From Phycisphaeraceae bacterium D3-23 (lineage in GTDB: Bacteria; Planctomycetota; Phycisphaerae; Phycisphaerales; Phycisphaeraceae): a stretch of 64,000 nucleotides of DNA. Position 1 is the first letter of the stretch. Every line of letters starts with the position of its first letter. The DNA lies in assembly GCA_039555135.1 (NCBI GenBank), contig CP114179.1, positions 2,852,001-2,916,000 on the forward strand. Direction: 5' to 3'. Positions 33,231 through 37,685 of the stretch are shown here, piece by piece. The notes under the pieces are model-generated. The model worked only from the letters and a program-made list of their open reading frames with translations, was not told where the DNA came from and did not search any database. Position numbers and translations under genes: made by a program.

Positions 33231-33737
33231 ATGGGAGCTGACATCCACGCGATCATCGAGGTCCAAGAGAACGGGCCGAATGGGCAGCACTGGTGGCGTG
33301 GATTTGCCTACGTGAATTGGGCTCGTTGCCGTTCAGTGTTCCATGCGCTAGGTGTCCATGGGAACAACGAGCATGTGCCGCAACGTGGTTTCCCTGTCGA
33401 TGCCTCCCAGTTTGCGATTGAAGAATACAGCATGACTATCTCAAAAGATGGTTCGCTCGACGCAAGAGTCCACGACTATCCCGAGGTCGAAGAATCTGCG
33501 GCTTTGGAGCTTGTTGAGTCGGGGGAGTCAGTATTTCTTGAAATCAACCCGCCCGCGATCTCAAAGCCAGGGTGGGAAAGTCCGAACTGGGTGACGCTGG
33601 CCGAGTTGCGAGACTGCGAAAGCAAATTTCCTGAGGAGTTTGCACGGCTAGAGGAGTACCAAGCTACTCGATGTGTTCTGGATTTCTACATGTCCCGAGA
33701 CTACACAGTGAGATTGGTCTATTGGTTTGATGTCTAG
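33231..33737 (+). CDS. Orphan protein starting MGADIHA, lower GC
   Basis: A 168-residue soluble protein. The N-terminus M-G-A-D-I-H-A-I-I-E matches a group of short hypothetical proteins found sporadically in bacteria and phages; W-W-R-G-F, N-W-A-R-C-R and a Trp/Pro-rich middle are notable. Function unknown. Base composition is visibly less GC-rich than the genes on either side, with more A/T-ending codons, which suggests recent acquisition. It overlaps the frame just before rtcB, and the two may be co-transcribed. No signal peptide or membrane segment. Confidence 0.7.
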   Translation: MGADIHAIIEVQENGPNGQHWWRGFAYVNWARCRSVFHALGVHGNNEHVPQRGFPVDASQFAIEEYSMTISKDGSLDARVHDYPEVEESAALELVESGESVFLEINPPAISKPGWESPNWVTLAELRDCESKFPEEFARLEEYQATRCVLDFYMSRDYTVRLVYWFDV

Positions 33738-33777
33738 TGGTCGGAGAACTGCTGCAAAAGGTCGAAGTGAGATAGAT

Positions 33778-35238
33778 ATGAAAGCCAAGCAACTCGAAAA
33801 ACTCGGCATCCCGGCGGCGCTGTCCAAGCCCGCGAAGTGGGCGGCATCCGCGGCGCGGCAGGACGGGCAGTCACTCGAAGAAGTGAAGGCCAAGCTCAAG
33901 ATGCTTGTCGACGACCCCGAGGCGCTCCTCGACGACACCTACTTCCGCGACCTCGCGGCGGAGATGGCGAAGTATCGGCGGATCGACGCGGCGCGCAAGC
34001 AGTTCGCCGACCAGCCGCCGCGCGTCGAGCCCGCGCCGTACCGGCAGTGGGGCGACGACCTGGACGACAACGCCGTGAAGCAGATGGAGAACGCCTGCCG
34101 GCTGCCTGTCGCTGCGCAGGCGGCGCTGATGCCCGATGCGCACCTGGGTTACGGCATCCCGATCGGCGGGGTGCTCGCCGCGCGCAACGCGGTCATCCCG
34201 TACGCCGTGGGCGTCGATATCGCTTGCCGGGTCAAGCTCAGCGTCTTCGACCTGCCGCCGGAACAACTGGATGGCCACCGTGACCGGCTGACCAACGCGC
34301 TCGAACACGAGACCCGCTTCGGCATCGGCGCGAGCTTCATCGACCGCGGCGGGCACGGCACCGCGCGCGAGCACGGCGTGATGGACGCCGACTGGTCCGT
34401 CTCCCCTGTCACCCAGCGCTTCAAGGACAAGGCCCACGCCCAACTCGGCACATCCGGCTCGGGCAACCACTTCGTCGAGTTCGGCACGCTCACCGTCGAC
34501 GACGCCGAGGCGAAGACCATGGGTCTCGAAACGGGCGGCACGTATCTCGCGCTCCTGTCGCACTCGGGCAGCCGGGGTGTCGGCGCGCAGGTCTGCGAGC
34601 ACTACTCGCGGATGGCGATGCTGATGCACCCGGAGTTGGACAAGCAGATGCAGCACCTCGCGTGGCTTGAGATGGACAGCCACGAGGGCCAGGAGTACTG
34701 GGCGGCGATGAACCTGATGGGCGACTACGCCAGCGCGAACCATGCGTGCATCCATGATGCGGTCGTGCGCAACTTGGGGGCGGAGGTGTTGGCGGGCGTA
34801 GAGAACCACCACAACTTCGCGTGGAAGGAGACGCACGCCGATCCTGACACGGGCGAGGCGGTCGAGATGATCGTGCATCGCAAGGGCGCGACCCCTGCGG
34901 GCGAGGGCGTGTTGGGCATCATCCCCGGGTCGATGGCGACCCCGGGCTATGTCGTCGTTGGCAAAGGCGGCGCGGGTTCGCTCGACTCGGCGGCGCATGG
35001 CGCAGGGCGGGTGATGTCGCGGAAGAAGGCCAAGGAGAGCTTCCGCTGGAACCACGTCAAGCCGACGCTGGAGAAGGCGGGGGTGACGCTCCTCTCGGCG
35101 GGCCTCGACGAGGTACCCGGCGTGTACAAGGACATCGAGCAGGTGATGAGCGACCAGAGCGACCTGGTGGCGAAGGTCGCGCGGTTTGATCCGAAGCTCG
35201 TGAAGATGGCTCCGGCGGGTGAGCGGCCCGAGGACTGA
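33778..35238 (+). CDS. rtcB: RtcB-family RNA ligase
   Basis: Joins RNA 2',3'-cyclic phosphate (or 3'-phosphate) ends to 5'-OH ends using GTP and Mn2+, in tRNA or rRNA repair. The 486-residue protein has the metal-binding V-D-I-A-C-R with its Cys, G-S-G-N-H-F-V-E, H-S-G-S-R-G-V-G and the catalytic region H-N-F-A-W-K-E; G-A-G-S-L-D-S-A-A-H-G-A-G-R near the end holds the guanylylated His. The first ~90 residues extend beyond the E. coli enzyme. No archease (the usual cofactor) is in the window. I prefer the ATG at 33778; an in-frame start at 33727 would overlap the preceding gene. Confidence 0.93.
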   Translation: MKAKQLEKLGIPAALSKPAKWAASAARQDGQSLEEVKAKLKMLVDDPEALLDDTYFRDLAAEMAKYRRIDAARKQFADQPPRVEPAPYRQWGDDLDDNAVKQMENACRLPVAAQAALMPDAHLGYGIPIGGVLAARNAVIPYAVGVDIACRVKLSVFDLPPEQLDGHRDRLTNALEHETRFGIGASFIDRGGHGTAREHGVMDADWSVSPVTQRFKDKAHAQLGTSGSGNHFVEFGTLTVDDAEAKTMGLETGGTYLALLSHSGSRGVGAQVCEHYSRMAMLMHPELDKQMQHLAWLEMDSHEGQEYWAAMNLMGDYASANHACIHDAVVRNLGAEVLAGVENHHNFAWKETHADPDTGEAVEMIVHRKGATPAGEGVLGIIPGSMATPGYVVVGKGGAGSLDSAAHGAGRVMSRKKAKESFRWNHVKPTLEKAGVTLLSAGLDEVPGVYKDIEQVMSDQSDLVAKVARFDPKLVKMAPAGERPED

Positions 35239-35310: not shown

Positions 35311-35344
35311 CAAAAAACAACAAGCCCCGGCGGGTGGCCGGGGC
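35311..35344 (-). terminator. Intrinsic terminator of the 30-codon gene
   Basis: Minus strand: GCCCCGGC-CACCC-GCCGGGGC, then TTGTTGTTTTTTG. On the plus strand no T-tract follows, so it serves the small minus-strand gene. Confidence 0.85.
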
Positions 35345-35379
35345 TCGGGGATAACGCGTTGATCGGGTATGCTGGGGGA

Positions 35380-35472
35380 CTAGCAGAGGGCCACGAAGGT
35401 CAGCAGCGTGAGCACGATGATTTTTTTGCGTCGGAGTGCCTGGTCGCCGTTGAGGTTGAAAAATCGGAACAT
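35380..35472 (-). CDS. 30-residue membrane peptide gene
   Basis: The peptide begins MFRFFNLNGDQALRRKK and continues with a hydrophobic helix (about 18-29, I-I-V-L-T-L-L-T-F-V-A-L) and ends in Cys. The basic RRKK before the helix predicts a cytoplasmic N-terminus. Every signal of a gene is present: a promoter (35504-35531), the ribosome-binding site AAGGA eight bases before the ATG, and a strong terminator 36 bases after the stop. It is convergent with rtcB and divergent from the large secreted orphan. No family is recognised. Small single-helix peptides of this kind often bind and tune membrane complexes. Confidence 0.72.
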   Translation of the reverse strand: MFRFFNLNGDQALRRKKIIVLTLLTFVALC

Positions 35473-35503
35473 GGTTCAAATCCTTGTGGTGGGCTTACAC
35501 TTT

Positions 35504-35531
35504 AGTATATTCAATGGCCGTGCCACGCCAA
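35504..35531 (-). promoter_or_regulatory. Promoter of the 30-codon gene
   Basis: Minus strand: TTGGCG (35526-35531), 16-base spacer, TATACT (35504-35509). The expected start point gives a leader of about 25 bases. Confidence 0.55.
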
Positions 35532-35570
35532 GTCCGATTTTGCGTAAAAAGTTGTAAATCGAGTTTTGAC

Positions 35571-37685
35571 ATGAAATTACGTGAATATCTCAGCATTATT
35601 CTAAGCCCCCGTTGCTGCCGGATGATGCCTGCGGGCAACACAGCCGGGCGCGGTGTGTCCTCGATACGCCACACGGTATTGCCGGTTCGGGCTGGTTTTA
35701 TAGGCCTGATCGTGCTGGTTTGTGGCTTTCTGTTGAGCCCGCCCGTGGTGGCCCAGGGGCTGCTGGATGGGGATGACGGCGTCGGGCCTGCGCCGACGAT
35801 CGAGCCCAGCGACGGCGAGGTCGCGTTTCATCTCGTGCAGGGCTGGGTCCGGGCCGGGCGTGTGCCGGGGGATGATGCGTTGCCGTCCGCGCCGCTGACG
35901 GGTGTGTTTGGTGTGTATGTCTCGCTGCGAGATGAGGGCAGGCTGCTGGGGCGCGGGGTTGCGCTTCGGCCGGACCTGGGCGCCACGGTTGATGCAGAGG
36001 GTCCTTCGGTCGATGTGGCGCTGCTGCTGGCCCAGGCGACGCGGACCGCGCTGCGTGAGGTCGAGCGGGCGCAGCGCCGCCGCGCGATCGAGCTGGGGAT
36101 TACCGATGAAGACCTTTTCGAGGAGTCGCTGCGCAACCTGCACGGCGATCTGTTGGTCGATGTGCAACTCGGGCACCACCTCGTGACGATCTCGCTCCCG
36201 GCCCAGGGCGACGCCGACGCGGTGTTTGGCCAGTTCGTCCCGGGCTTCCACGGCCTACGCATGACGGGCTCATTGATGCCCAACGGCGACCTGATCTGGC
36301 CCGGGAACGCGCTGATGCGCAACACCTCCCCACGCAGTCAACTTATCCAGCTCCTGGATCGGCAGGGCTTCGAGGAAGAAGACCTCGTCGCGGTCGCCCG
36401 GCCCGCGGGGGCGCAGCTCGAACGCTTCGAGGTCGTCCACTTTCTGCAGGCCGGCCCCAACCAGCCGCCGCGGCAGCTGATCCGCGGCAACGTCGTCGTC
36501 CCGCGACGAGCGCTCGATACCCCCGGGCTCAACGGTATTGTCGAACGCATCGCCCGGCACATGGACGGCAAGATCGGAATACTCAACGACGGTACGCTTA
36601 TCCTCCGCGGGCCCTACCGCCCGTCGTACGACCGGATCGACCCGGACCTCGCCCCGCTGCGCCAGGCGTCGCTCGCGTGCTTCGCGATGCTGGTGCAGAG
36701 TAAGAGTGCGCAGCAACGCTCACCGAGCGATCGGACCAGCCGCAACCGTGGGGACCGCGCGCTGCGTGTCGCGGAGTCGCTCGTGCCGTTGGCGATCCCG
36801 CGTGGCGGCGATATCCAGTCGGTGAGCGCGGCGTTGCTGCTGCTGGCGCTGTGTGAGTCGCCCGTGCCGGTCGATGAAGACCTGCGTGAAGCACTGGGGG
36901 AGGCGTTGATGTCGCTGCACCTGCAGGGCGGCGGCTTCCGCGCGATGCCGGACGGCTCCCGGGCCGAGCCCGGCGACATCGAGCGTGCGAGCCGGGCGAC
37001 CGAGGCGGTGATCACCGCGGCGCTGGCGTCTTGGTACACAACGATGAACGAGGCGGACCCGGCCGTGCGTCGGGCGGTGTGGCAGTCGATGAACGCGCTG
37101 GTCGTGGCCAACCGCGACGATGCGGGTGGGGCGCGTTTGGCGGACCTGACCTGGCTGAGCGTGGCGTATAGCCGGGCGGGCCGGCAGATCGCCGGGGCGA
37201 TGCAGGATGCCGATGCACAGGATCACCTTACGCGGATGCAGGGGTTCTTGGCCGAGCAGATGCAGCTCTTGATCGACCAGCAGGTGCAGGGCGTCCCGCT
37301 GAAGGGGCCGGACGACGTCGCGGGTGGCTACGTCACGCACAACGGCATACATGGCGCCGCGCCCGACCCGACATGGGAGTCGGCCATGCCGCTGGCCGTG
37401 ATCGCCGCCGTCCTGCGTGACGAAGCGATCGTCGAGCCCAACGACATCTTCGGCCCGCTGCTCTCGGCGCAGCTGGGCGCTCGCTTCATCGCCCAACTCC
37501 TCATCACCGACGCCAACGCCTACTACGTCCGCGACGTCCAGGCCGCCTCGGGCGGCGTCCGCCGATCGCTCTGGGACAACACGCTCGACCTCGACTGCTC
37601 GGCGATGGCATTGATTGCGCTGAGCGAGCTGCAGACCTCGCTGCACACGCTCGAGCAGCGCGACGCGGGAGTCGGCGGCGAGTAA
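35571..37685 (+). CDS. Large secreted protein, unknown
   Basis: About 704 residues. A hydrophobic signal (about 42-62 from this start, G-F-I-G-L-I-V-L-V-C-G-F-L-L) ends at V-V-A-Q. Residues ~95-260 are a mixed alpha/beta domain. The C-terminal half (~370-690) is helical, with repeated A-L-A-L/W-W-like turns and motifs such as G-G-G-F-R-A-M and G-G-Y-V-T-H-N-G, reminiscent of alpha/alpha-toroid folds. No catalytic motif is certain. The start is uncertain: ATG at 35571, 35622 and 35625 are all in frame, and none has a good ribosome-binding site; the later ones give a more normal signal peptide. Confidence 0.7.
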   Translation: MKLREYLSIILSPRCCRMMPAGNTAGRGVSSIRHTVLPVRAGFIGLIVLVCGFLLSPPVVAQGLLDGDDGVGPAPTIEPSDGEVAFHLVQGWVRAGRVPGDDALPSAPLTGVFGVYVSLRDEGRLLGRGVALRPDLGATVDAEGPSVDVALLLAQATRTALREVERAQRRRAIELGITDEDLFEESLRNLHGDLLVDVQLGHHLVTISLPAQGDADAVFGQFVPGFHGLRMTGSLMPNGDLIWPGNALMRNTSPRSQLIQLLDRQGFEEEDLVAVARPAGAQLERFEVVHFLQAGPNQPPRQLIRGNVVVPRRALDTPGLNGIVERIARHMDGKIGILNDGTLILRGPYRPSYDRIDPDLAPLRQASLACFAMLVQSKSAQQRSPSDRTSRNRGDRALRVAESLVPLAIPRGGDIQSVSAALLLLALCESPVPVDEDLREALGEALMSLHLQGGGFRAMPDGSRAEPGDIERASRATEAVITAALASWYTTMNEADPAVRRAVWQSMNALVVANRDDAGGARLADLTWLSVAYSRAGRQIAGAMQDADAQDHLTRMQGFLAEQMQLLIDQQVQGVPLKGPDDVAGGYVTHNGIHGAAPDPTWESAMPLAVIAAVLRDEAIVEPNDIFGPLLSAQLGARFIAQLLITDANAYYVRDVQAASGGVRRSLWDNTLDLDCSAMALIALSELQTSLHTLEQRDAGVGGE

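Follow-up and report, generated by a model that had tools for sequence, protein, structure and literature searches.

A microprotein gene close to core in the order Phycisphaerales, with a conserved C-terminus and a sigma-54-type promoter module

The minus strand of the window (the whole stretch of 64,000 nucleotides of DNA from Phycisphaeraceae bacterium D3-23 analysed here) carries a 30-codon reading frame that, together with its control region, is well supported as a real gene by sequence comparison. The best explanation of its product, and in our judgement a probable one, is a microprotein that inserts into the membrane and serves a sigma-54 envelope regulon in an accessory or feedback role, a mode of action that we infer. 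The reading frame, the selection acting on it, its fixed C-terminus, and its cis-regulatory module are established from the sequences compared, and the gene appears close to core in the order Phycisphaerales. The features of the region are as follows.

35380..35472 (-), stop included: the 30-codon microprotein gene, MFRFFNLNGDQALRRKKIIVLTLLTFVALC, identified by ORF scan, homologues, and purifying selection.
35481..35485 (-): Shine-Dalgarno-like AAGGA, 8 nt 5' of the ATG.
35510..35525 (-): sigma-54 promoter-like -24/-12 element, TGGCACGGCCATTGAA, with 0 mismatches to TGGCAC-N5-TTG(C).
35623..35640 (-): palindromic enhancer-like site, TGTTGCCCGCAGGCATCA, matching TGTTGC-N6-GCAACA at 11/12 positions, 97 bp upstream of the -24.
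35504..35531 (-): sigma70-like TTGGCG-16-TATACT, score 9/12, overlapping the sigma-54 site.
35321..35347 (-): intrinsic-terminator-like hairpin of 11 pairs, then a T-run, found in the terminator scan.
35484..37685 (+): divergent predicted secreted protein gene with an AMMECR1-like N-terminal domain and a helical toroid-like part.

The original prediction had placed a 30-codon frame on the minus strand between rtcB and a secreted-protein gene, and the frame is indeed found there, flanked by the gene at 33727-35238 (+), which we take to be rtcB, and by the secreted-protein gene; the AAGGA ribosome-binding site that it proposed was also located. All the other elements named in it are present, with two details changed. 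The TTGGCG-16-TATACT promoter exists as a sequence element and overlaps a perfect sigma-54 core; the 2 kb region around the gene holds two promoter-like sites, compared to a shuffled mean of 0.2. The predicted terminator corresponds to the 11-pair hairpin with its T-run; the same region contains three terminator-like sites against a shuffled mean of 1.3. The peptide does have a hydrophobic helix ending in Cys, but its basic residues are mostly found in the middle of the chain (RRKK, residues 14-17) rather than at the N-terminus. An AlphaFold2 model (mean pLDDT 78; four sequences as input) places a helix over residues 3-29. The hydrophobic stretch of 13 residues, short for a full membrane span, ends exactly at the C-terminus.

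The conserved part of the microprotein is formed by the last ~17 codons, [RK]-[IV]xxLTLLT[FY]xA[LM]C-stop. In the 58 distinct cores, every residue at -14 is Lys or Arg and every residue at -10 Leu; position -5 holds Phe or Tyr, position -3 Ala (57) or Ser (1), and position -2 Leu (39) or Met (19); the last residue is Cys, a count that is partly built into this set by the profile, whereas the position of the stop is not. Loci read later widen the core: position -3 can also be Val or Thr, and position -2 can be Ile (before the Cys in G409 and G525). All 120 accepted loci (84 of the first set, 30 later ones, and 6 more) share the stop position; 111 end in Cys and 9 in Met, Leu, or Ser, the terminal-Cys counts being partly a matter of construction, since selection relied on a Cys-ending profile, on synteny, or, for 23 of the first 84, on a known ending. 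In the later check, 34 matches were read, of which 30 were newly accepted, and the expected stop was present in 33. The natural variants lacking the Cys have ALM directly before the stop in six genomes of genus g34, AMS in G516, AIL in G366, and VLL in G038; the loci with terminal Met in genus g34 are L161, L163, L165, L167, L171, and L296. Because the Cys is replaced at 9 of the 120 loci while the stop is kept, the end point is more constant than the thiol.

Over the last 17 codons, pN/pS is 0-0.26 in 15 close pairs, and the means for all pairs are 0.64 (pS) and 0.35 (pN). The entropy at codon positions 1, 2, and 3 is 1.12, 0.64, and 1.50 in the core and flat at ~1.93 each after the stop; conservation ceases at the stop, and the bases beyond it are not conserved. 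ORF length across the cassette varies from about 23 to 41 codons. At 64 of 84 loci, the start that was chosen has a Shine-Dalgarno sequence of at least 4 nt before it, compared to 9% in the control, a flattering contrast in which the best of several starts at the loci is set against one random start in the control. A terminator-like site lies 3' of the gene at 15 of 84 loci, compared to 0.4% of shuffles. With the C-terminal half of the peptide conserved across the whole order, and the DNA beyond the stop not, the feature exceeds what chance would give. The claim of a real gene in the original prediction is borne out by conservation, purifying selection, the start with its Shine-Dalgarno sequence, and the promoter module, with no match in Pfam or NCBIfam.

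The first translated search gave matches in 30 of 61 related genomes at E<=1, with Cys directly before the stop in 29 of the 30 loci read; the L058 locus was excluded, as its frame continues beyond the expected end. Of 269 Phycisphaerales genomes that are at least 90% complete, a profile of the 29 members matches 217 (E<=0.02), with a single match in 211 of these and two matches in 6. Both copies in G016 look real, each with its own neighbour gene adjoining. In a class-wide sample, 43 of 47 Phycisphaerales genomes and 70 of 151 genomes of other orders match at E<=0.1, some of the weaker matches sitting within long frames and being counted unread. A phylum sample of 343 genomes, searched with a 57-row core profile at a cut-off of E<=0.3, yielded matches in 54 of 57 Phycisphaerales and 17 of 20 other genomes of the class. 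Loci were read for 53 of the 54 and for all 17, and the expected stop was found in 53/53 and 16/17, respectively; a match in another order of the class (G580) was excluded on account of a frame extending past the end. The match in G356, which lies within a 759-codon frame and has its end unread, was also left out, and no micro-ORF was found beside the neighbour gene in G356 or G049. With the microproteins of G055 and G516, recovered by reading the DNA beside the neighbour gene, the final tally of genomes read to the stop is 55 of 57 in the order and 16 of 20 in the rest of the class. Outside the class, one of 266 genomes (G735) falls below E 0.01, and its frame runs two residues beyond the Cys. 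Named records with related sequence belong to Phycisphaeraceae and Phycisphaera sp. The micro-ORFs of family f9 (L303-L308, L311, L313, L315, and L122) share a longer N-terminal block, ..KIWHPFFAGKKRILILA.. and variants of it.

From sequence comparison, a sigma-54 promoter with a palindromic site appears to be the better reading of the microprotein promoter. The -24/-12 consensus TGGCAC-N5-TTG lies upstream of the ORF in many relatives; 39 of 61 loci have it with no more than one mismatch, whereas none of the 61 downstream controls does, and 1.3% of shuffles do. In many loci, a palindrome, TGTTGC-N6-GCAACA, is positioned ~95-100 bp above the -24, and a site matching it at 10 or more of 12 positions is present at 61 of 84 loci, compared to 1.0% of shuffles and 2 of 81 controls. 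The combined module reaches a score of at least 18 of 21 at 51 of 84 loci and in none of 1,680 shuffles or 81 downstream controls, the score in the window being 20. Among the further loci, 12 of 34 reach this value (10 of 21 in the order and 2 of 13 outside), which sums to 57 of 91 loci in the order and 6 of 27 from other orders. The latter six are found in G582, G571, G577, G656, G115, and G650 (families f99, f105, f7, and f96), the locus of G650 having been found by searching for the module itself. We had considered the module as a trait of the whole class, and rejected this since only those 6 of 27 loci reach 18; the claim was narrowed to the order, on which the probability given to the main explanation rests.

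The module is not universal. None of the 10 loci of family f9 carries it, and this family would have to drive the microprotein gene otherwise. No -24/-12 within two mismatches is present at 22 of the 84 loci, including those of G001-G004, the relatives from the same genus as the window, in none of which a canonical sigma-54 -24/-12 is found; three of them retain an enhancer-like site with 10 or 11 matches in 12 positions, against 9 in G002. Because G002 has a sigma70-like TTGGCT-16-TATCCT at the place of the corresponding element in the window, another promoter is possible in this genus. The sigma70-like element is probably not the main promoter in most of the family, and the window's genus may differ. 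RpoN is encoded in the window genome (E 1.6e-59); its DNA-binding domain occurs in 194 of 198 class genomes, so its presence allows the sigma-54 reading without discriminating.

The divergent neighbour, the true start of which is probably further in, near 35619, adjoins the microprotein gene at 46 of the 48 loci in the order. Clustering identified 44 of these, a profile added L086, and a search added L103; of the two exceptions, L100 is truncated where its contig ends, and at L089 there is no adjacent copy. The neighbour gene is present in 47 of 47 sampled Phycisphaerales genomes and in 46 of 151 other class genomes. A functional link between the two once looked likely because of this constancy in the order, and it was rejected because other orders separate them and four genomes of genus g34 keep them far apart. 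Thus, in other orders, G115 and G564 have the microprotein without the neighbour gene at E<=0.001, G582 and G632 are likewise not among the neighbour-gene matches, and 20 other-order neighbour genes have neither a micro-ORF nor a module upstream (gene-sense score 17 once, otherwise no more than 16). In genus g34, where the microprotein gene is far from its usual neighbour in four of six genomes (the neighbour gene was not located in G504 and G505), the module is kept, with five of six loci at 18 or more and the sixth at 17. We treat the pair as an instance of conserved gene order, which is no proof of joint function. A weak AMMECR1 match is found in 7 of 37 neighbour members (best E 8.4e-4), and the copy in the window has no Pfam match. 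In a low-confidence model of the neighbour (pLDDT 64), the best folds are alpha2-macroglobulin and the GH76 and GH88 toroids, the AMMECR1-type structure 1zq7 comes at rank 14, and no fold attains E 0.001. We also considered that the toroid-like neighbour might prenylate the terminal Cys or modify it in some other way; this was rejected in view of the replacement of the Cys at 9 of 120 loci and the dispensability of the neighbour.

Other genes lie behind the same elements. A search of 198 class genomes for the combined pattern gave 22 occurrences, spread over 18 of them, compared to 6 for the reversed control; the cases that look real precede a PEP-CTERM gene (L183, G566), the micro-ORF of G650, and a coiled-coil protein (G566 and G610), the other occurrences being before unclear frames or chance-like. 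Exact palindromes number 59 in 61 related genomes, compared to 14 for the control. All exact sites were read, amounting to 60 loci (one site twice) and 120 site-sides; a sigma-54 core with no more than one mismatch lies 60-150 bp away on 14 of the 120 site-sides, compared to none at 400-490 bp, and the remaining 106 have no such core nearby. Downstream of these 14, four related-looking secreted proteins (L214, L224, L237, and L261), two lipoproteins (L219 and L238), and one more secreted protein (L232) were recognized by eye. The rest, likewise judged by eye, comprise two VanZ-like proteins (L247 and L251, with VanZ confirmed by profile for L251), the coiled-coil protein (L206), the micro-ORF (L207, G011), and three unclear cases (L216, L217, and L259). 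The four related-looking secreted proteins are about 180-230 aa long and come from four different genomes. The small coiled-coil protein carries ..KYLVFDLEATRRENxYLRxxLE.. near its end at loci L206, L222, L204, and L188; it lies behind TGTTGC-N6-GCAACA in G566 and G610, from other orders, and in G019 and G024, from the window's family, and a sigma-54 core with at most one mismatch is present at L204, L188, and L206 and absent from L222.

In G040 (L264, 5784-7562), two enhancer-like palindromes lie between a topoisomerase-like gene (assigned by eye) and a gene for an NtrC-family response regulator, which we consider a candidate activator of the regulon; the nearest sigma-54-like site to the response-regulator gene has three mismatches. 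Apart from this regulator, no kinase or activator was found linked to the module. Among PEP-CTERM-like genes, judged by the first possible start, one of eight has the module (score 21), and a PEP-CTERM regulon was rejected as a general explanation, the link being restricted to G566. A second PEP-CTERM gene of G566 (L203) perhaps has the module, its PEP-ending frame differing from the frame nearest the promoter. In the window genome, the ORF at L175 1069-3012 (-), ending VPEPGTFAGLAVLLLCTSRRRRR, looks by eye like a PEP-CTERM protein, and the organism therefore probably has an exosortase system. A perfect sigma-54 core was also seen in the window genome before an Hsp20-like gene (by eye; L178 1501-2045, about 1156503). 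The hsp20 gene was rejected as a co-regulated gene, with no palindrome above 8/12 in the 300 bases before it.

Palindromic enhancer-like site, sigma-54 promoter, and ORF together make up a cassette in the Phycisphaerales and also in four families from other orders. On binding TGTTGC-N6-GCAACA, an activator of NtrC type would turn on the microprotein together with other envelope genes. The microprotein would begin with a cytoplasmic N-terminus that varies, followed by a basic collar and a hydrophobic C-terminal helix of 13 residues, usually ending on Cys. According to the positive-inside rule, basic residues keep the N-terminus inside; the collar would do so here, with the hydrophobic stretch inserting N-in and the C-terminal end meeting a membrane partner of the regulon, on which the microprotein would act as a small accessory or feedback subunit, in the manner of MgrB on PhoQ. 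We infer from sequence features that the gene is transcribed and translated, that its product inserts into the membrane, and that there are an activator, a partner protein, and a feedback role. An accessory or feedback role in the regulon itself is favored over a role in a single operon, given that no fixed neighbour is required and that the module is retained where the gene lies away from its usual neighbour. The role of a regulator of a membrane complex, put forward in the original prediction, is a plausible possibility.

We can speculate further, and only tentatively, that the Phycisphaerales and some sister families possess a sigma-54 envelope regulon of their own, run by an NtrC-type activator at TGTTGC-N6-GCAACA, in which the microprotein provides the feedback at the membrane. 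With its basic collar and its exact C-terminal end, as a rule a Cys, it might dock onto a sensor kinase or another membrane partner, length rather than the thiol being conserved. Further targets of the regulon might include secreted proteins, lipoproteins, and proteins of VanZ type, as well as a PEP-CTERM protein in a single lineage. The cell biology of the Phycisphaerales is little known, and a regulatory module readable from sequence in most of the order offers a way into such a regulon. The microprotein also offers a model for studying how a chain of only ~30 residues, its C-terminal end fixed, can function in a membrane, and its gene is near-core in an order, yet no curated family was found for it.

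Among the alternatives, the microprotein could be a one-helix structural component of some core complex in the membrane, whether for respiration, transport, or translocation, with sigma-54 control only matching that of the complex. Its presence throughout the order with one match in nearly all genomes, its strongly conserved helix, and its free-standing gene with its own promoter would all suit such a subunit. We nevertheless consider it unlikely, as searches of Pfam, NCBIfam, and PDB sequences gave no relative that convinces, none of the 25 largest neighbour clusters (from 61 loci) is a recurring same-strand partner immediately 3' of the gene, and enhancer-dependent promoters generally fit conditional genes. 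The lack of a recurring same-direction gene directly downstream, together with the terminator-like site after the ORF in the window, also speaks against a leader peptide with a regulatory function, or a small RNA driven by sigma-54, where the peptide itself would be inert. The short transcript unit with a terminator, the conserved codons just before the stop, as in ribosome-arrest peptides, and the fact that sigma-54 drives known small RNAs such as Qrr are in line with that idea, which is nonetheless improbable: third codon positions are the most variable in the core, conservation ends at the stop, and no Rfam match was obtained (best E 0.81, on the other strand).

Still less probable is the type I toxin-like peptide mentioned in the original prediction, namely a hydrophobic, membrane-damaging product restrained by antisense RNA. 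Its size, its basic and hydrophobic composition, and its own promoter and terminator do resemble such toxins, but type I toxin-antitoxin systems are distributed patchily and often in multiple copies, whereas this gene, matched in 217 of 269 order genomes with two matches in only 6 of 217, is nearly single and near-universal in the order; in addition, its sequence is under purifying selection and its divergent neighbour is conserved at 46 of 48 order loci. An equally slight chance is given to a precursor of lipoprotein or pheromone type, whose terminal Cys would carry a lipid or whose hydrophobic tail would be set free as a signal peptide, as in enterococcal pheromones. The succession of basic residues, hydrophobic stretch, and Cys is reminiscent of a lipoprotein signal peptide that stops at the Cys. 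A lipobox, however, has a small residue directly before the Cys, and here that residue is Leu (39) or Met (19) in the 58 cores and Ile in G409 and G525, never small; moreover, the Cys itself is present at 111 of 120 loci and is not invariant.

Comparison of the microprotein with described families reveals no convincing relative. In Pfam, NCBIfam, and PDB sequences (best E in the last 0.55), only marginal matches to OapA_N, DUF2857, RodA, and caspase were obtained; no relative was found in PHROGs (best E 0.11) or viral contigs, and no description was found in the literature searched. CydX, KdpF, and AcrZ, the one-helix small subunits, are similar in having 25-50 residues, one hydrophobic helix, and a conserved single gene, but the microprotein lacks a recurring operon partner or a convincing profile match. 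The small, hydrophobic type I toxins TisB, Ibs, and TimP resemble it in size and hydrophobicity and differ in that the microprotein is order-wide, mostly in one copy, and kept by the same neighbour. Predicted sigma-54 regulons have been reported in Planctomycetota, the sections consulted naming neither the microprotein gene nor the palindromic site (PMC12316311).

PEP-CTERM genes with PrsR/sigma-54 boxes are described as single-gene units with a site upstream of the sigma-54 motif; their motif 1 ends in TTTACA and averages 63 nt upstream, and the boxes were found only in Proteobacteria (PMC1569441). The microprotein gene is likewise a single-gene unit with a site before a sigma-54 motif, and L183 of G566 carries a module of the microprotein type, but the site is TGTTGC-N6-GCAACA rather than a motif ending in TTTACA. 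The micro-ORF lacks PEP, has the order of elements reversed, and gives no match to a PEP-CTERM profile. MgrB is a 47-aa inhibitor of PhoQ (PMC8404706, PMC10576120). Like the microprotein as predicted, it is a small single-helix membrane protein. MgrB is expressed by the system on which it feeds back, and the microprotein might be controlled in a similar way, its activator-type site being conserved and one candidate activator being present in G040. The Cys of MgrB is on the far side of the membrane, where the terminal Cys of the microprotein would also lie. The microprotein differs in being shorter, in having its Cys at the very C-terminus, and in its sigma-54 enhancer-type control, and none of its 29 members matches the MgrB families of Pfam or NCBIfam at E<=1. 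By analogy, MgrB may nevertheless serve as the nearest working model for the microprotein.
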